NCBI RefSeq assembly: GCF_000731095.1
Contig: NZ_JMTZ01000086.1
Location: forward strand, 1 to 50,076
Source of the DNA: Lysobacter antibioticus
Lineage (GTDB): Bacteria; Pseudomonadota; Gammaproteobacteria; Xanthomonadales; Xanthomonadaceae
Length of the DNA stretch: 50,076 nt
Direction: 5' to 3'
The notes beneath the pieces were generated by a model. That model was not told the DNA's origin. It searched no databases and worked only from the letters and a program-made list of their open reading frames with translations. The translations under genes and the position numbers were made by a program. Shown piece by piece: positions 14,976 through 24,408 of the stretch (positions are counted from its first letter, which is position 1; each line of letters starts with the position of its first letter).

Positions 14976-17900
14976 TCAGCGCCCGGTCTCCGGCGTCTTC
15001 GTGGCCGCCTCCGTCTCCATCGCCACGTCCTGCGCGCTCGGGGCCATCATCGCCGCACCCGACTGCAGGCCCGGCGAGAACGACAGCAGCAGGCCGAAGC
15101 TGGTGCTCGGGTCCTGGCCGCTGCCGTGCTGGCGACGCATCAGCAGCGACAGCTTCCAACCTCTGGAGAAGGTCATGTCCATGCCTGCGCCGTAGCTCAA
15201 CGCGTTGTCGCCGTAGCTGCGCAGGCCCAGCACGTAGTCGTTGGCGACCGGCATGATCACGTAGTTGAGGTTGACGTCGCTGCGGTTGTCGATCGACTCG
15301 CGGTATTCGAGCAACCAGTACGGACGGAAGATGTTGCCGCGTGCGGTCACGATCGGCAGGCTGCCTTCCACGCCCAGCGATGCACCGCTGTTCTCGACGG
15401 TCTGCGAGCCGTAGCTCAGGTCGTAGATGCCCAGCCCGGTCTCGCGATAGCCGTCGAGCTTGGTGCGGCTGCTGTCGAGGCGGCCGTAACCGGTCAGCAT
15501 CATGCCGTTGCCGCCGCCGTGTTCGTAACCGGCGGTGAGCGAACCGAACACCTGGTCGCCTTCTCGCTCGGCCGAAGCGGTGGCACCGGCCGTCGCACTG
15601 TAGCGGCGGATGTCGAAATCGAGGCGGCCCCAACCGAGGATGCCGTCGACGAACCAGCGTTCGCTCGGGCGCCACAGGCCGTACAGCGACAACGCGCGCT
15701 GCTCGGCATCGAGCTTCGAGCGGCCGTCGTCCAGGTCGGTGTCGTTCCAGCCGAAACCGCCGGCGACGCCGAGCAGGAAGCGCTCGCCGATGCGCCAGTC
15801 GGCACCGACGGTGAGGCCGTCGCTCTGGAAGTCGAAACCGTCGCTGCGCGCGTTGCGTTCGCGCTGACCATTCGTGATGCTGCCGGCCGTCCACAGGCCC
15901 CAGCCTTCCGGCAGGCGCACCGGATCGATCGACATCACTTGGCCGGCGGTCAGCGACATCGCCCCGCCCGAGCGGCTGCTCAGGTTGAGGGCCATGTCGT
16001 TGCTGGAACGGTTGGCGCCGGCGAAGCGCTGCTGGCGCAGGCGGTCGTGGATGTTGGACTGCTGCGCCGAAGCGAAGCGCACGCTGGCGTCGACTTGCGC
16101 TTGCAAGCCACCGACCACGCTGGGATCGCGGGTCGGGTCGGGTCGGCCGGTCACCGTCAAGGTGGCATCGATCGAAGCCTGCAGGTAACTGCCGCTGGCC
16201 GCCTGGGTCGCGACCAGGGTCGCCACGCCGGCACCGACGATCGTCACCCTGCGTCCGCTGACCGTCGCCACCGCCGTATTGGCGCTGCTGAAGCTGAAGG
16301 CGCCGTTGCTGTTGCTGCTCGGGTCGGGCAGATCGAAGGCCGCCTCGCCGACGGTCTTGGCGAGGTCGCCGATCCAGGCCAGGTTCGGCGTGGCGCCGGC
16401 GATGATCACTTGCAAGGCGACTTGCGGCGCGGCGGTGTAGTTGGCGTTGCCGGCCTGGTCGGCGGTGAGCGAACACGTGCCCGATCCCAGCGTGCTGACC
16501 GTATTGCCGCTGACGGTGCAGATCGCCGGCGAAGTGCTGGCGAACACCACCGGATTACCCGAGGCTCCGCCGCTGGCCGACACCGTGAAGCTGCCGCCCG
16601 GCGTGTACACCGGCGCTGCCGGATTCGCGCTGAAAGCGGTGATGGCCTGAGCGGCCGCGCCGATGGTCACGTCCAGCGTCAGTTGCGGCGCGGCGCTGTA
16701 GTTGCCGTCGGCGGCCTGGTCGGCCGTCAGCGAACAGGTGCCCGCGCTCAACATCGTCACGGTGCTGCCGCTGACCGTACACACCGAACTCGTAGTGCTG
16801 GCAAACACGACCGGGCTGGTCGAGGCACCCGGCGTGGCCGAGACCGCGAAGCTGCCGCCGGCCGCGAACACCGGCGCCGCCGGGTTGGCCGCGAAATCGG
16901 TGATCGCCTGGGCCGCGAGGGCGATGGCCACATTCAAGCTGACCTGCGGCGAAGCGCTGTAATTGCTGTCGCCGGCCTGATCGGCGGTGAGCGAACAGGT
17001 ACCCGCGCTCAGCATCGACACCGTGCTGCCGGCGACCGTGCACACGCTCGGCGTGACGCTGCCGAACACCACCGGGCTGCTCGACAGGCCCGGCGTCGCC
17101 GAGACCGTGAAGCTGCCGCCCGGCGCGTACACCGGCGCGGCCGGATTGGCAGCGAAGTTGCTGATCGATTGAGTGGCGACACCGATCGCGACGACCAGCG
17201 AGGCCTGCGGCGCGGCGCTGTAGTTGGCGTTGCCGGCCTGGTCGGCGGTCAGCGAGCAATTGCCCGCGCTGACGATCGTCACCGTGTTGCCGCTGACCGT
17301 GCAGACCGCCGGCGTGGTGCCGGCGAACACCACCGGGTTACCCGAGGCGCCACCGGTCGCCGACACGGTGAAGCTGCCGCCCGGCGAGTACACCGGTGCG
17401 GCGGGATTGGCCGCGAACGCGCTGATGGCCTGGCTGGCAGGACCGATGGTCACCGCAAGCGTCGCCTGCGGCGCGGCCGTGTAGTTGGCATTGCCGGCCT
17501 GATCGGCGGTGAGCGCGCAGTTGCCTGCCGCCACCGTCGTCACCGTATTGCCGGCGACGGTACAGACCGCAAGCGTGGTGCTGGCGAAGACGACCGGGTT
17601 ACCCGATGCGCCACCGGTGGCCGAGACGGTGAAGTTGCCGCCCGGCGCGTACACCGGCGAGGCCGGATTGGCGGCGAAGGCGGTGATCGCCTGGCTCCCC
17701 TGCGCGATCACCAGGGTGTAGGCGCGCGTGCCGCTGAAACCGTTGCTCGAAGTCGCCTGCACGGTGAAATTGAACGAACCCGCGGCGGTCGGGGTGCCCG
17801 ACAACGCACCGCCGTTCGACAGGGCCAGGCCCGGCGGCAAGGCGCCGGCGGTGACCGCGAAGGTATACGGAGCGACGCCGCCGTTGCCGCTGGTGGCGCT

Positions 17901-19223
17901 GAGGGTCTGCGAATACGCGGTCGCGAGCGCGCCATTGGGCAAGGTGGCCGGATTGACCGTCACCGCCACCGTGACGCAGCTCAGCACGAGGTTGGTCACG
18001 TCGGCGGCGATCGCCGCACCGCTGGACGGCGCGACGCTGCACAGCTGGCCGGCGGGATTGCTGAGCACGCTGACGTTCCAGTTCGCGCCCTGTGGCAGGC
18101 GTGTGGCGAAGACGAAGCTGCTGGCGGCCTGCGCCACCACCACCTGCTGCGAGCTGACCGGATTGGTCGCGGCGAGTTGCAGGGTGACCGGGCCGGTCTG
18201 GCCGCTGGCCGAACCGCCGACCGCGAATTGGGTCGGGGCGAAGCAGACCAAGGCCGCGCCGTTGCCGGCTTGCACGCCGTTGTTGATGGTGACGGCGCTC
18301 AGGCCGGTCGCGCCCGAGCTGCCGCCCGCACCGCCGCCACCGCCGCCGTTCCAGTTCTGCTGGCAAGTGACGGTACCGACGCCGGCACCGCCGCCGCCGG
18401 CACCGACCGTGGCACCGCCGCCGCCGCCGCCGCCGAAGCCGGCACCGCTGAAGGAACCGGAGAAGTTGAAGGCGTCGCCGCCGTTGCCATTGGCCGCGTT
18501 GCCGGCAGTGGCCGGAAAGCTGCCGCAGCCACCGCCGCCCGCACCGCCGGTGCCGACCGCTCCGCCACCGCCGCCGTAGGGGCCGGGGCCGCCCGGCACG
18601 TCCGCGCCTGCGCCGCCCGTGCCGCCGCCGCCGACACCGCCGGCACCGCCCGCGATGACGTTCGCGGTGCTCCAGCCGGCGTTACCGCCGCCACCGCCGC
18701 CGCCGGCGATGCCGACGCGGTTGCCGATGCCGTTGCCGCCGACGCGCAGGTCGGTGGCGCCGCCGCCGATGCCGTCGACGCCCTCGCCGATGCCGCCGGG
18801 ATTGACCGCCTGCGAGCCCTGCCCGCCGACCCAGATCGACAAGGTCGCGCCGGGCGTGACCGCCAGGGTGCCGCGCACCCGCCCACCCAGGCCGCCGGTG
18901 CCACCGGGTGAGTTCGGGCTGCCGCCGATGGTGCCGGCGCCGCTGCGACCGGCGCCGCCCTGGGCGCCGCTGAGGTAGACGGTCAGCGAATGCACGCCGG
19001 CCGGCACGGTGAGGGTCTGCTCGCCGCCGGTGAAACCGAACGCCGCCGGCGTTTCGCCGACACCGCAACTTTGCGCTTGCGCCGTACCGGTAATGCCGAG
19101 CCCCGCCAGCAACAGCAGGCCGCTCAGCCGGACCATGGCGCCGCGAGCCGCGCGCAGGGCCGGATCGAGACACAGGCGCGTGGTCGCGCCCGCACGGAAT
19201 CGCAACGTCTTCATAAGCATCAT
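14976..19223 (-). CDS. Giant autotransporter with Gly-rich head and five 87-residue repeats
   Basis: A 1415-residue type V secreted surface protein. A long signal region ends near GTAQA (about residue 50). Next come a Gly-rich domain (about 50-330) with long GGGG tracts, Ig-like segments (about 330-505), five tandem 87-residue repeats (about 508-943), a bacterial Ig-like domain containing AVATVSGRRVTIVGAGVATL, and a C-terminal autotransporter beta-barrel (about 1035-1415; ADWRIGERFLLGVAGG, YGLWRPSERWFVDG). Two cysteines per repeat are unusual for a passenger that crosses the outer membrane unfolded. The start MMLMKTL follows AGGGGG by 4 nt; the ATGs at 19220 and 19214 are equally possible. 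It is monocistronic with its own terminator. An adhesive or biofilm role is inferred; no enzymatic domain is visible. Confidence 0.88.
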   Translation of the reverse strand: MMLMKTLRFRAGATTRLCLDPALRAARGAMVRLSGLLLLAGLGITGTAQAQSCGVGETPAAFGFTGGEQTLTVPAGVHSLTVYLSGAQGGAGRSGAGTIGGSPNSPGGTGGLGGRVRGTLAVTPGATLSIWVGGQGSQAVNPGGIGEGVDGIGGGATDLRVGGNGIGNRVGIAGGGGGGGNAGWSTANVIAGGAGGVGGGGTGGAGADVPGGPGPYGGGGGAVGTGGAGGGGCGSFPATAGNAANGNGGDAFNFSGSFSGAGFGGGGGGGATVGAGGGGAGVGTVTCQQNWNGGGGGGAGGSSGATGLSAVTINNGVQAGNGAALVCFAPTQFAVGGSASGQTGPVTLQLAATNPVSSQQVVVAQAASSFVFATRLPQGANWNVSVLSNPAGQLCSVAPSSGAAIAADVTNLVLSCVTVAVTVNPATLPNGALATAYSQTLSATSGNGGVAPYTFAVTAGALPPGLALSNGGALSGTPTAAGSFNFTVQATSSNGFSGTRAYTLVIAQGSQAITAFAANPASPVYAPGGNFTVSATGGASGNPVVFASTTLAVCTVAGNTVTTVAAGNCALTADQAGNANYTAAPQATLAVTIGPASQAISAFAANPAAPVYSPGGSFTVSATGGASGNPVVFAGTTPAVCTVSGNTVTIVSAGNCSLTADQAGNANYSAAPQASLVVAIGVATQSISNFAANPAAPVYAPGGSFTVSATPGLSSSPVVFGSVTPSVCTVAGSTVSMLSAGTCSLTADQAGDSNYSASPQVSLNVAIALAAQAITDFAANPAAPVFAAGGSFAVSATPGASTSPVVFASTTSSVCTVSGSTVTMLSAGTCSLTADQAADGNYSAAPQLTLDVTIGAAAQAITAFSANPAAPVYTPGGSFTVSASGGASGNPVVFASTSPAICTVSGNTVSTLGSGTCSLTADQAGNANYTAAPQVALQVIIAGATPNLAWIGDLAKTVGEAAFDLPDPSSNSNGAFSFSSANTAVATVSGRRVTIVGAGVATLVATQAASGSYLQASIDATLTVTGRPDPTRDPSVVGGLQAQVDASVRFASAQQSNIHDRLRQQRFAGANRSSNDMALNLSSRSGGAMSLTAGQVMSIDPVRLPEGWGLWTAGSITNGQRERNARSDGFDFQSDGLTVGADWRIGERFLLGVAGGFGWNDTDLDDGRSKLDAEQRALSLYGLWRPSERWFVDGILGWGRLDFDIRRYSATAGATASAEREGDQVFGSLTAGYEHGGGNGMMLTGYGRLDSSRTKLDGYRETGLGIYDLSYGSQTVENSGASLGVEGSLPIVTARGNIFRPYWLLEYRESIDNRSDVNLNYVIMPVANDYVLGLRSYGDNALSYGAGMDMTFSRGWKLSLLMRRQHGSGQDPSTSFGLLLSFSPGLQSGAAMMAPSAQDVAMETEAATKTPETGR
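16395..17700 (-). repeat. Five in-frame 261-bp repeats within the autotransporter
   Basis: The marker TAGTTGGCGTTGCCGGCCTG (with variants) recurs at 16438, 16699, 16960, 17221 and 17482, an exact period of 261 bp or 87 codons. Each unit encodes ANPA-PVY-PGG-FTVSA, then VCTV-GNTV, then G-C-LTADQAGNANY. The units are close enough in DNA sequence to recombine. Confidence 0.93.
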
Positions 19224-19765
19224 CTCGCCCCCTAGGCGAACCGCATCGCGGTTGCACGAAACCCTCGCACACGCGATCGCGCGCACGGCCTGTGCGCCAC
19301 GAACGCGAGTGCTCCCCTGCAAAAAGTCCTGGGCCTATGCGCTCGCGGCCTACCCCAAGGCCCGACGAGCGTCCGGTCGAAACCGGTACCCGGAACACAA
19401 GCGCCCCTCCCTGAGGCGCTTCGTTGGAAACAGTTAACGCGGAACGAGCCCGTTTGCGGACAACTCGTCACAATAAAAACTGTGCCAAGCGACACATTAA
19501 TCCAGATGACCCGGATTTTCCGTACCGCTGGTCCGACAACCCCGGACTCGGCTTCACGATGCCGGCCGCGGCACGTTGCAGCCGAGCTTGCCGACTCGGA
19601 CGCGCCGCTACGCGCGATCGGGCGCGCCGTGGCCTGGCCCCCGCGGGACCAGCCGCCTGCGACGAACCCGGCCGCGAGCGTTGTAGCGCAGCGCGCAAGC
19701 ACGGCTATGCGGCGTCCCGGCCCAGCCGCCGGACACGGTCGTGGCCGGGCCACGGCCGCCCCGGG
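19224..19765. other. Control region between the autotransporter gene and tRNA-Arg
   Basis: About 540 bp without a supported gene. It is partly AT-rich (19462-19505) compared with its surroundings and contains a CRP/Clp-like site at 19481-19496. The promoters of the minus-strand autotransporter and of tRNA-Arg diverge from here. Confidence 0.55.
19481..19496. promoter_or_regulatory. Candidate CRP/Clp-like binding site
   Basis: The minus strand reads TGTGTCGCTTGGCACA, matching TGTGA-N6-TCACA at 8 of 10 positions and in an AT-rich context. It lies about 260 bp upstream of the giant autotransporter. Clp, the Xanthomonad CRP homologue, controls extracellular enzymes and adhesion factors. Confidence 0.4.
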
Positions 19766-19838: not shown

Positions 19839-19915
19839 GGCCCCGTAGCTCAGCTGGATAGAGCATCCCCCTCCTAAGGGGAAGGTCACACGTTCGAATC
19901 GTGTCGGGGTCGCCA
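19839..19915 (+). tRNA. tRNA-Arg, anticodon CCT
   Basis: A 77-nt cloverleaf with encoded CCA: GGCCCCG acceptor strand paired to CGGGGTC, D arm GCTCAGCTGGATAGAGC, anticodon arm CCCCCTCCTAAGGGG and T arm CACACGTTCGAATCGTGTC. The CCT anticodon reads AGG, a very rare codon at this GC. tRNA-Arg(CCT) is a common attachment site for integrative elements, and a 52-bp partial copy of this gene lies at 22729-22780. Confidence 0.97.
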
Positions 19916-19918
19916 ACC

Positions 19919-20328
19919 TAAGGGCTGGGCGAGACAGCAAGCAAGCGCGCGCTTCCAAGTCCCGATGGCTCCGCTCATCGCATTCGACTCGGACTTCACC
20001 CGGTCGGGCAACGGCCCGACGGCGGCAAACACGCTGCCGGCACCAATGCGTCACGTCTGCTCGGCCGGCACGAACGACACATCGAACACTCGCCATCTTT
20101 GTGCGGTTCGATCCGCCCCGGCCACTTACCTGCCGGCATCGCGCACATAACGTCGAACAGCGCCGTCTTCGGCCAGCGGCCATGAACAAAAAATAAGTGT
20201 GATTGCCCTGAATTTGGCGTATTTCTCTACGTACGACGGAACATGCGGCCCTATGCTTGCGCTCTGTCGGAACAACCGACGAACCGCTGGCATCGAGTTG
20301 CTACAGCCGTTCTCAGGGGGAAGGTTCC
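19919..20328. other. Upstream region of the DUF11-type gene
   Basis: 410 bp without a supported gene. The stretch 20180-20250 is AT-rich compared with the rest of the window and probably holds the promoter of the surface protein gene. The rest contains only short frames lacking ribosome-binding sites. Confidence 0.45.
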
Positions 20329-22530
20329 ATGCCGAGGTCATCCAGTGCCCTGCTGCCGCCAGGCGCAGCCCTGCTTTCTGTGAGCCGGCGCAGGCCGGGC
20401 ATACGATTTTCGAGACGCGCCTTCCTCTGCCTGTTTGCGGCGATGTCGGCATTCGGATTCGCCGGCGGTGCTTTCGCGCAAACCAACTGGGTCACCTTGT
20501 CGGGCGGTAATCCGGGCATTTTGAACAGCGGCCAGACCGCCACGCGAACCTGGCTGTGGGCGCCCGGTGGAAGCTCTATTACCGGCACGGTCGATATGAC
20601 CCGCACCGGCGCCGGGCAGGTCTATGGATTCACCGAGAATCATCAAACCACCATTACCGCGAGCGGCTTCGGCGCCCCCGCTTACTCCGACGCATACGCC
20701 AACTCTGTCGGCGGCGTGACCGGAATCTTCCACTTCGGTTTCGAGGGCGAATTTCCGCGCGCACCGGACGATGCGCCGCCCGCGGCGGTTTCCACGACCG
20801 TCGTCGACTTCAAATTCAACGGCAGCGTCACCTCGCCCGACAACACCATCATTTCGTTATTCGACCCCGGTTCCGGCGATACCGGCGTCACCGGGCCGTT
20901 CACTTATAACTTCGATGCCTACTATCAAGGCGTTCCGATCAACACCAGCACCTGGACAGTGACGGTCGTCGACCCGTATCCGCCCACCGGCACGCCGACG
21001 AACTACACCTGGAACGCATCCACCGCGACCTACACGCTGTCGTCGTTTCCGTCGGCGACCGGCGGCAACTATCCCGACACGCTGGTTTTCATCGATACCC
21101 ATAACACCACCTTCGACCGTCTGGTATTGACGGCGGTCGGTCTGGTGACGGACAACCTGGGCGTCGGCTTCGGCTCGGCCAATGTGCCCAACCTGCCGAT
21201 CACCCTGGGCAAGACCTGGGTCAACGGCAAGAGCGGCGATACCGTCAGCCTGACTCTCGCAGGAGCGGGCGCAGAAAATCCTACCGCCGGCACCTCGACG
21301 CCGCCGGCCACGACGACCGCGGCGACCGCGAACGGCTTGCCGAGCCAAACGGTCACCCTCAGCGAAACCTTCACCACCGGCAGCGCGGCGAACTACACCA
21401 TCACCTGGGAATGCCGGCGCATCTCGAACAACACGCTGGTGGCGAGCGGCACCGGCGCTAGCGGCAGCTTCACCATGCCGACCGACTCGGGCGTCGGCTG
21501 CGCGTTCACCAATACCCGCATCGCGCAGCAGATCAATCTGGCCAAGACCTGGCAGAACGCCACAGTCAACAATGCGATTACGGTGACGACGACGGGCGGC
21601 ACCAACAACCCGACGCTCGCCTCCACTGCGAACACACCGAACGAGACCGATACCGGCGCGGCGGTCACCGTGTATGCCGGCGACAGCGTCGTGCTTCCGG
21701 CGGAAGCCTTTTCCAACGGCAGCCAGGCGAACTACCTCACGACGGTCGCCTGCGCCGGCGGCTCCACGCTCGCGTCGGGCGCGACCGGACGCTCGCTGAC
21801 GATCTCGACCAGCACCACGGCGACCACCTGTACCTACACCAATATCAAGCGACCGGTGATTCGCCTGCAGAAGTCCTTGCCGCTCGGACGCTTCGTTGCC
21901 GCCGATCAGTTCGCACTGAGCGTGGCCGGCCCGGGCGCGCCGGCGCCGGTGACGACCACCGGCAGCGGCAGCACCGCCACCGGCACCGTGACGGTGGACC
22001 CGGCCACGATCGGCTCGGCCTATACGCTGTCGGAAACGGCGGCGGCCGGCACCAATCTGGCGAACTACACCACGGCCTGGAACTGCAGCAACGCCTTTTC
22101 GGGCGGACAGACGCCCAGCGGCAGCGGCACCAGTTTCAATCTCACTCCGGTAGCCGGCGACGACCTGACCTGCACCTTCGCCAACACCCGCGCACCGCTC
22201 GCGGACTTGTCCATCACCAAGACCAACACCCCGGGCGTGAACGGCGACGTCGACCAGGCCAACGACACCTTGATTCAAGGCGCCATCACCACCTACACCA
22301 TTGTGGTGACCAACAACGGCCCGGACGCGGTGACCGGCGCGGTATTGCGCGATCCGATCGCCGGCCGTAGCGAGCTGATCTGCCCAGGCCCGGCAGCTTG
22401 CTCGGGAGCGGGTTGCCCCGCACCCACCCTGACCATCGCGCAACTGGATGCAGGGGTGGCGCTGGCAACCTTGGCGGCGACGGCACCGAACAATCAGGCG
22501 ACCGTAACCCTGAGCTGCACGGTCCAGTAA
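20329..22530 (+). CDS. DUF11-type secreted surface protein with prealbumin-like repeats
   Basis: A 733-residue exported protein. A long N-region with RRR and RR precedes the hydrophobic core and a cleavage site at GGAFA/QT (about residue 50). An N-terminal beta-rich domain (about 51-285) is followed by three repeats of about 105-120 residues. Each has a GKTW or QKSL-type start, a T-SET/LSET strand, a centre containing TTxxC or ITWEC, and an ending CxFTNTR or CTYTNIK. These are prealbumin-like folds, as in adhesins. The C-terminal DUF11 domain (about 625-733; ADLSITKTN, TYTIVVTNNGPDAV) ends LSCTVQ, as complete proteins of this type usually do. No sorting signal or beta-barrel is visible, so the means of surface retention is unknown. 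The start at 20329 is supported by GGGGGAAGG. It lies alone between the tRNA-Arg repeats. Confidence 0.85.
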   Translation: MPRSSSALLPPGAALLSVSRRRPGIRFSRRAFLCLFAAMSAFGFAGGAFAQTNWVTLSGGNPGILNSGQTATRTWLWAPGGSSITGTVDMTRTGAGQVYGFTENHQTTITASGFGAPAYSDAYANSVGGVTGIFHFGFEGEFPRAPDDAPPAAVSTTVVDFKFNGSVTSPDNTIISLFDPGSGDTGVTGPFTYNFDAYYQGVPINTSTWTVTVVDPYPPTGTPTNYTWNASTATYTLSSFPSATGGNYPDTLVFIDTHNTTFDRLVLTAVGLVTDNLGVGFGSANVPNLPITLGKTWVNGKSGDTVSLTLAGAGAENPTAGTSTPPATTTAATANGLPSQTVTLSETFTTGSAANYTITWECRRISNNTLVASGTGASGSFTMPTDSGVGCAFTNTRIAQQINLAKTWQNATVNNAITVTTTGGTNNPTLASTANTPNETDTGAAVTVYAGDSVVLPAEAFSNGSQANYLTTVACAGGSTLASGATGRSLTISTSTTATTCTYTNIKRPVIRLQKSLPLGRFVAADQFALSVAGPGAPAPVTTTGSGSTATGTVTVDPATIGSAYTLSETAAAGTNLANYTTAWNCSNAFSGGQTPSGSGTSFNLTPVAGDDLTCTFANTRAPLADLSITKTNTPGVNGDVDQANDTLIQGAITTYTIVVTNNGPDAVTGAVLRDPIAGRSELICPGPAACSGAGCPAPTLTIAQLDAGVALATLAATAPNNQATVTLSCTVQ

Positions 22531-22728
22531 GCAAGCCGACCGCCGGATCGACAGCGGCCGGCGCGGCCCGCCGCGCGGCCGTGATCGGCCTAGCCATGCC
22601 CGGCCATGACGGGCAATCAACATGCAATAACCGGCCATAAGCGCCCGTTACCGGCCGTTGCCGAGCACCGCCGCGGCCCACCGGCTACAATTCGCCGGAG
22701 CACCCCACGCTTCGATTGGACGCGGCGC

Positions 22729-22780
22729 CCCCCTCCTAAGGGGAAGGTCACACGTCCGAATCGTGTCGGGGTCGCCAACC
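22729..22780 (+). pseudogene. Partial tRNA-Arg(CCT) copy (3' half)
   Basis: It repeats the tRNA-Arg from the anticodon stem to two bases past CCA. The single mismatch changes the T-loop GTTCGAATC to GTCCGAATC, at the universally conserved T54/psi55 region, and the 5' half is missing, so it cannot make a tRNA. A TACAAT hexamer lies 38 bp upstream (22686-22691), like the one upstream of the intact gene. Confidence 0.85.
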
Positions 22781-22875: not shown

Positions 22876-24408
22876 ATGACCCACCCCGTTCTCGCCGCCC
22901 TGGGACTCAAAGACAACGAGTCCGGCACCTACCTCGGTCATGGCGAATGGTCGAAGACCGCCGACGCCGGCGTGCTGGAGCCGATCAATCCCACCGACGG
23001 CGAAGTGCTGGCGCGCGTGCAGGCGTCCTCGCAGAGCGATTACGACACCATCGTCGAACGCGCCCAAGCCGCCTTCGCGGTGTGGCGCACCACCCCGGCC
23101 CCGCGCCGCGGCGAAGCGATCCGCCTGTGCGCCGACGCGCTGCGCAAGCACAAGGACGCGCTGGGTTCGCTGGTCGCGCTGGAAATGGGCAAGTCCAAGC
23201 CGGAAGGCGACGGCGAAGTGCAGGAAATGATCGACATCGGCGATTTCGCCGTCGGCCTGTCGCGCCAGCTGTACGGCCTGACCATGCACTCCGAGCGCCC
23301 GGGTCACCGCATGTACGAGCAGTGGCATCCGCTCGGCCTGGTCGGCGTGATCTCGGCGTTCAACTTCCCGGTCGCGGTGTGGGCCTGGAACTCGTTCATC
23401 GCGGCGATTTGCGGCGACATCACCATCTGGAAGCCCTCGCCGAAGACCCCGTTGTCGGCGATCGCCTCGATGAAGATCTGCAACGAAGCACTGCGCGCCG
23501 CCGGTTTCCCGGACATCTTCTTCCTGTTCAACGACGCCGGCACCGAGCTGGCCTCGAACTTCGTCGACGACAAGCGCATCGCGCTGGTCAGCTTCACCGG
23601 TTCGACCAAGGTCGGCCGCGTGGTCGGCGAGCGCGTCGCGCGCCGCATGGGCCGCTCGCTGCTGGAACTCGGCGGCAACAACGCCATCATCGTCGACGCT
23701 TCGGCCGACCTGAAGCTGGCGATCCCGGCGATCGCGTTCGGTGCGGTCGGCACCGCCGGCCAGCGTTGCACCACCACCCGCCGTTTGTTCGTGCACGAGT
23801 CGATCCATGACGACGTGCTGGCCAAGCTGGTCGCGGCGTTCAAGCAGGTCGAGAAGAAGATCGGCGACCCGACCGACCCGGCCAACCTGATGGGCCCGCT
23901 CAACAGCCGCGATGCGGTGCAGGCCTACCTGGATGCGGTCGAAAAGGCCAAGGCCAGCGGCGGCAAGGTCGAGACCGGCGGCGCGCAGATCGAGCGCAAG
24001 GGCAACTTCGTCCTGCCGACCATCGTCACCGGCCTGAGCAACGACGCCGAAGTGGTGCAGACCGAAACCTTCGCGCCGATCCTGTACGTGATGAAGTTCA
24101 AAACGCTGGACGAAGCCATCGCCCTGCAGAACGACGTGCCGCAGGGCCTGTCGTCGTCGATCTTCACCGCCAACCTCAAGGCCGCCGAAGCTTTCCTGTC
24201 GGCCGCGGGTTCCGATTGCGGCATCGCCAACGTCAACATCGGCACCTCCGGCGCCGAGATCGGCGGCGCGTTCGGCGGCGAGAAGGAAACCGGCGGCGGT
24301 CGCGAGTCGGGTTCGGACGCATGGCGCGCCTACATGCGCCGCCAGACCAACACGATCAACTACTCCGACGCATTGCCGCTGGCGCAGGGCATCAAGTTCG
24401 ATCTGTAA
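22876..24408 (+). CDS. amaB: ALDH7-family aldehyde dehydrogenase (aminoadipate semialdehyde type)
   Basis: A 510-residue NAD-dependent dehydrogenase of the antiquitin/ALDH7 family, which oxidises alpha-aminoadipate semialdehyde (in equilibrium with piperideine-6-carboxylate) in lysine breakdown. Active-site residues are in place: Asn163 (AFNFP), Lys186 (WKPSPK), Glu264 (LELGGNN) and Cys298 (GQRCTT). [43 protein letters not shown]-like segments near the C-terminus are characteristic. The start is supported by GGAG 8 nt upstream. It is immediately downstream of the partial tRNA. The symbol follows the Pseudomonas usage; the exact substrate is inferred from family. Confidence 0.9.

Follow-up and report, generated by a model that had tools for sequence, protein, structure and literature searches.

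A precisely inserted, integrase-less one-gene island in tRNA-Arg(CCT) of Lysobacter antibioticus

How does a single gene for a putative surface protein come to lie between a tRNA gene and a second copy of that tRNA's 3' half, with no integrase beside it? The question is raised by a stretch of 50,076 nucleotides from the soil bacterium Lysobacter antibioticus (contig NZ_JMTZ01000086.1 of assembly GCF_000731095.1), called the window here. The tRNA-Arg(CCT) gene on the left is intact, as a preliminary description made from the letters alone had proposed; it is called by ARAGORN and scores 108.1 bits with our covariance model R1. A 52-bp repeat that starts in the anticodon stem of this tRNA recurs to the right of the surface-protein gene (Table 1), again in agreement with that description. 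The starts of the two copies are 2,862 bp apart, and the copies are identical at 51 of 52 positions, the mismatch being a T to C at 22756, within the T loop. The chance expectation of such a match in the 5.5-Mb genome is E = 2.7e-19; the only other matches to tRNA-Arg are two of 74–75 bases (72–74% identical). The regenerated tRNA and the displaced end fragment have the same orientation, and the fragment lies on the side expected of a tRNA genomic island. The gene on the right flank is presumably of the ALDH family, a name taken from the preliminary description and from general knowledge.

Table 1. Positions of the insertion unit, its parts, and the right-flanking gene in the window
Feature	Position	Strand	Basis
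tRNA-Arg(CCT), intact; insertion target, rebuilt at the left junction (attL side)	19839..19915	+	ARAGORN
52-bp repeat, left copy (positions 29-77 of the tRNA and ACC), starting in the anticodon stem	19867..19918	+	repeat search
Non-coding leader of the island, 60.7% G+C	19919..20328	+	composition and alignment
Sole clear gene of the island, 733-aa protein	20329..22530	+	Pfam, NCBIfam, same-site orthologues
TACAAT promoter-like motif at the right end of the island, directed at the ALDH gene	22686..22691	+	motif search; putative function
Right copy, if read as a whole tRNA shape; 52.6 bits	22701..22777	+	model R1
52-bp repeat, right copy (attR side): the 3' half of the tRNA, displaced	22729..22780	+	repeat search
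ALDH-type gene, right flank; directly after tRNA-Arg in empty-site genomes	22876..24408	+	ORF and comparison with congeners

In 17 of 19 congeners, the nearest relative G005 among them, the tRNA-Arg runs directly into the ALDH gene, which starts 80–148 bp past the tRNA match. Such empty sites had been named beforehand as a sign of insertion, and they support the earlier view that an integrative element brought in the surface-protein gene. Only G010 and G019 also carry the DUF11 gene at this site; one of these two is L. antibioticus HS124, and the sister of that genome has an empty site. Past its tRNA, G005 continues as the window does past 22780, with 4 mismatches in 162 aligned bases counted from the repeat start, one of them inside the repeat. 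The left flanks of the two genomes are 86.8% identical over 1.3 kb and the right flanks 93.8%. With this agreement on either side, the insertion is bounded exactly by the repeat. Nor do all relatives carry gene and fragment, the outcome that the preliminary description had named as fatal to its interpretation: the specific N-terminal part of the protein is matched in 3 of 20 genomes of the genus, and across the family 3 of 395 genomes have its N-terminal segment of 273 residues, always at tRNA-Arg(CCT); both counts include the window's own genome.

The DUF11-type gene is the sole clear gene between the repeats, and here the preliminary description was right; the AT-rich DNA that it saw around the gene is not borne out, the island having 65.1% G+C compared with 68.3% in the rest of the window. 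Among 473 equal-length stretches of the window, 4.9% are as low or lower. The 410-bp leader alone drops further, to 60.7%, and it aligns only patchily with the two other occupied sites. The start codon at 20329 was picked by eye owing to GGGGGAAGG immediately upstream, and the N terminus of the protein, also read by eye, is signal-like. Domain matches are located in the C-terminal part, with Pfam (20377–22527 scanned) giving SpaA_3 (E 9.6e-29) and DUF11 (E 1.8e-5); the NCBIfam family TIGR01451 is matched as well. At this tRNA, G010 and G019 have orthologues that are 83 and 81% identical over the alignment (84.6 and 83.3% by tblastn). The protein has 14 matches in its own genome including itself, mostly to the C-terminal half; around seven paralogue loci, each taken with ~1.5 kb of flank, one tRNA is found (tRNA-Phe, ~1.2 kb away, at a contig end). 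The first 374 residues have matches in 6 of 20 genomes of the genus, the window's own included, and three of these (G012, G013, G018) are confined to residues 285–374. In these genomes, the N-terminal region of the protein is specific to the tRNA-Arg(CCT) site. Three plasmid records match the protein only over parts of residues 345–727 (<60% identity), and a search of genome contigs returned L. antibioticus HS124 and, in a Sphingorhabdus bin, a C-terminal match at 45%. AlphaFold runs on three sequences gave no usable structure (mean pLDDT 41). The literature collection searched has no paper joining Lysobacter antibioticus with DUF11 and none combining Lysobacter, genomic island, and tRNA-Arg.

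At the right end of the island, the TACAAT motif at 22686 and its surroundings are conserved in G010 and G019. The motif is absent from the tRNA–ALDH spacers of the 17 empty sites (for G015, 2.9 kb were examined, since the spacer is not delimited). It may give the ALDH gene a promoter after insertion. The Rfam tRNA family has no tRNA match on the right copy, either in the window stretch or in L043, the corresponding locus of G010, and model R1 was therefore built from ten tRNA-Arg genes and used to score the right copies of both. With up to 8 substitutions allowed, no right copy of the repeat is found in G010 and G019. Their right end is a diverged tRNA-like relic (30.1 bits, E 7e-7 in G010 with model R1), which joins the same flank that follows the tRNA in the empty genome G008; in shuffle tests of the G010 relic, the 5' part is suggestive (301/20000) and the 3' part clear (0/20000). 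The relic (L043 8506–8594 in G010, with identical letters in G019) is 89 nt long, a tRNA-like length, and the 7 bp of its acceptor stem pair perfectly. The two sides of its T stem have both diverged from the host tRNA, and the stem still pairs. It could be read as lucky decay, as retained structure, or as a foreign tRNA half.

The full-length tRNA shape of the window's right copy, the TACAAT that begins 15 bp upstream of this shape, and the score and acceptor stem of the G010 relic are what a tandem tRNA duplication would leave, if one copy were degenerating and the gene between them were incidental. The window's right copy does not qualify as a complete second tRNA, its 5' part failing the shuffle test (3132/20000 as good); 7417 of 50000 28-mers of the window score as well as its first 28 nt. 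A duplication would thus have decayed unevenly, to chance level in the first 28 nt and by one change in the last 49, and each of the 17 empty sites has one tRNA-Arg there. We regard duplication as very improbable.

The next question is whether the three occupied sites go back to one insertion or two. In a tree of three flanking genes, the window is sister to the empty G005, and G010 with G019 is sister to the empty G008, with node support of 1.0; the occupied genomes stand in separate clades. The DUF11 gene has a dS of 0.82 between the window and G019 (684 codons; 0.86 with the longer ORF that includes the leader) and of 0.80 between the window and G010. For 25 other window genes compared with G019, dS is 0.22–0.77 (median 0.39). 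These were taken from 30 genes called by a simple GC3-based caller, not from annotation, with best matches as orthologues; three genes with no G019 match, one paralogue comparison (dS 0.80, its match overlapping that of a neighbour), and the DUF11 gene itself were dropped. As other window genes reach 0.67–0.77 and the paralogue row 0.80, the DUF11 value is high without standing apart. Had the insertion preceded the split of the window genome from G019, ~10 changes would be expected in the 52 nt of the repeat at the median rate, and the Poisson probability of at most one change is 0.0005 (0.02 at the lowest gene dS). Since the split from G005, ~3.4 changes are expected, with a probability of 0.14 (median of four genes).

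Two separate insertions, one in the window lineage and one in that of G010 and G019, would fit best and are favoured because of the separate clades, the high dS, and the fresh as against the decayed right copy; the occupied sample is three genomes, of which G010 and G019 are near-identical. The main escape is gene conversion by the intact tRNA gene, which could keep the right copy fresh and undo the timing argument. With such conversion acting in the window, a single ancient insertion before the split of the window from G010/G019, followed by loss in G005, G008, and others, would account for three genomes that share gene, site, orientation, and a similar TACAAT right end. It requires several precise losses on the tree, it leaves the DUF11 gene with a dS above all 25 comparison genes, and the right copy, fresh in the window lineage, is decayed in that of G010 and G019; we consider it quite unlikely.

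The cargo allele itself has a history between the two near-identical genomes. G010 and G019 show 8 differences in 9,000 bases (0.1%) on the left side of the tRNA and 47 in 7,250 (0.6%) beyond the island on the right, whereas their islands are ~8% apart (206 mismatches over 2,500 bases counted from the start of the tRNA), which indicates that the allele was replaced as a block. The divergent stretch runs from four bases past the tRNA to 56 bases before the gene stop. Within the DUF11 gene, 157 of 2,049 bases differ (dN 0.028, dS 0.25), and within the ALDH gene 9 of 1,530 (dS 0.024). The replaced block begins at the tRNA end or somewhere left of it and stops in the last bases of the gene, not at the right att copy. 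As the end lies inside the gene, the event is not simple att recombination; the right-hand end needs no more than ordinary homologous recombination. A diversifying retroelement was weighed as the source and rejected, the differences spanning coding and non-coding DNA and being mostly synonymous. If the DNA of an occupied relative had been imported by ordinary homologous recombination, and the window lineage had seen no site-specific step, this block would be a precedent, as it stops ~56 bases short of the gene stop and not at an att site. Up to the repeat, however, the window agrees on both flanks with its empty sister G005, and the fresh right copy is unlike the decayed one in the known occupied relatives. 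Import of this kind seems improbable to us.

The assembly of the window contains two PF00589 proteins only (Pfam; 312 and 318 aa open frame, on contigs C49 and C21), and the island, on contig C86, holds neither. From their length and profile, we take both to be Xer-like proteins, and they match the integrase of G010 weakly. A tblastn search with that integrase found no integrase or stub in the three occupied islands. With no recombinase in the island and only Xer-like proteins elsewhere in the assembly, the unit cannot move alone now; as the assembly is in 168 contigs, an integrase could have been missed. These results fit the earlier suggestion that the integrase was lost or is supplied in trans, and since no occupied island has an integrase or stub, the enzyme is one that we infer. 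IMG/VR contains no exact match to a 45-base stretch of the tRNA 3' half. Among phage records, 449 have general tRNA similarity, the best at 89.6% identity and none in the band >90%.

Across related genomes, tRNA-Arg(CCT) is an insertion hot spot. G010 has an integrase frame of 370 codons (phrog_1 integrase, E 2e-53; 328-aa part scanned) that ends beside the intact tRNA on contig C80, and contig C21 of that genome carries a 5' tRNA fragment with upstream DNA nearly that of G019. The G010 element was probably inserted from the 5' side, with C80 and C21 flanking one element. G007 has a 5' tRNA fragment 6.7 kb upstream together with the last 49 aa of an integrase, and G008 has a stub of the last 48 aa (69% identical). 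In G022, from another genus of the same family, an element splits tRNA-Arg(CCT) at the anticodon (L084 1880–2200, L085 500–560) and carries its own tRNA-Arg(CCT) (L084 1905–1981); no integrase was recognised by eye in the ORFs of the first 2.2 kb. It resembles the tRNA-dependent lysogeny reported for actinobacteriophages in the part of PMC10865867 drawn on here. The elements of G007, G010, and G022 meet in or beside the anticodon arm of the tRNA-Arg. On the 5' side, the repeats stop at tRNA positions 42 and 45, and the repeat of the window starts at 29, so that all include the anticodon loop, the probable place of a common crossover for the tRNA-Arg elements.

Other tRNA genes and the left flank gave further observations. 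On contig C9 of the window's genome (L135 9971–14289), tRNA-Pro(CGG) is followed 4.2 kb downstream by a perfect 49-nt copy of its 3' half (positions 29–77), and the five ORFs scanned between them yield a single Pfam family, HNH_3. G005 has two full tRNA-Pro copies 5.06 kb apart, and G009 a full copy and a 50-nt 3' copy ~12.2 kb away. On contig C22 (L139 9950–13979), an 89% copy of the first 38 nt of tRNA-Ser(TGA) is located ~3.9 kb upstream of the gene, with a 729-aa open frame between them that has no Pfam match above the curated cut-off. Immediately upstream of the tRNA-Arg, the window has a large autotransporter gene with a He_PIG domain (14976–19322, minus strand). Of the 19 congeners, 14 have an autotransporter match upstream of the tRNA within the stretches compared, which vary in upstream reach; it is absent from the examined stretches of G007, G008, G010, G018, and G019.

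The full integrase of G010 and the stubs of G007 (49 aa) and G008 (48 aa) form a decay series on the other side of the tRNA, and the 4.2-kb tRNA-Pro island of the window's genome has an HNH gene and no integrase family in its five scanned ORFs. Both would suit a larger prophage or ICE at the tRNA-Arg site from which all but the surface-protein gene was deleted, separately in each lineage. Two lineages would then have to reach the same single gene, with similar length and order, and no stub was found. This is a narrower form of the last step of the account given next, with which its odds overlap, and we hold it to be possible though rather doubtful.

Our preferred account, to which we give a probability of about 0.65, is that of a site-specifically inserted, integrase-less, CIME-like one-gene island that is not self-mobile, with two separate insertions. 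The 2,862-bp island would have entered the anticodon arm of tRNA-Arg(CCT) by site-specific recombination, bringing a tRNA 3' half that rebuilt the gene on the left and pushed the 3' half of the host to the right end. In the window lineage, this would have happened around or after the split from G005, and a related unit would have been inserted separately in the lineage of G010 and G019. The inserting enzyme was presumably a tyrosine integrase of anticodon specificity, acting in trans or since deleted, as for CIMEs. The cargo would be expressed as a secreted protein, and its allele can be replaced as a block. A bolder proposal, unlikely in our view, is that of integrase-free 'tRNA cassettes': preformed one-gene units, bounded only by the tRNA-Arg(CCT) 3' half, would travel and be inserted in trans by anticodon-specific integrases of resident prophages or ICEs, and the genus would swap surface-protein genes and alleles at one tRNA with no dedicated transfer system.

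Among known systems, phage satellites and hitchers, as treated in the part of PMC11389934 used here, resemble the window island in small size and in movement that depends on others. A PHROG search with the cargo protein gave no match at E 0.01, and a pattern-based search of viral contigs found no relative of it. The island also differs from phage satellites in having no recognised satellite or packaging gene and no recombinase. Tycheposons are counted among phage satellites and other hitchers. Integron cassettes and CALINs, named in the same part of PMC11389934, likewise have one gene per mobile unit and the enzyme elsewhere; the site of the window island differs in being a tRNA anticodon arm. 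In Islander, 2083 of 3919 islands are anticodon-centred, class 'A' (PMC4383910), and the window island resembles these in its regenerated tRNA and displaced 3' fragment; its length is above the 2-kb limit given there. According to the sections of PMC4383910 cited here, Islander drops candidates with no integrase, so that integrase-less islands are left out by construction and catalogues of this kind are blind to one-gene tRNA islands.

A CIME, in the portion of PMC5704250 relied on here, is an att-flanked island that has kept attL and attR and lost its integration and transfer genes. The window island is likewise placed in a tRNA gene between a putative attL and attR, both kept, with integration and transfer genes absent and SpaA/DUF11 as its sole gene. 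In G010, the island has an integrase-bearing element as its neighbour at this tRNA, which recalls accretion (PMC5704250), a probable tandem arrangement pieced together from two contigs. There are differences: the neighbouring element of G010 lies on the 5' side of the tRNA, and the window island has one gene only, with no ICE or IME remnant recognised in it. As a precisely inserted, integrase-less one-gene tRNA island, it belongs to an ordinary class of mechanism; its unusual points are the single gene and the same site occupied in two clades. If such units insert repeatedly, as the two clades suggest, they would be a cheap means for secreted proteins to spread and diversify, given a helper. 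The locus offers a clean case, with both flanks, an empty site, and a relative that carries a candidate helper integrase at the same tRNA.
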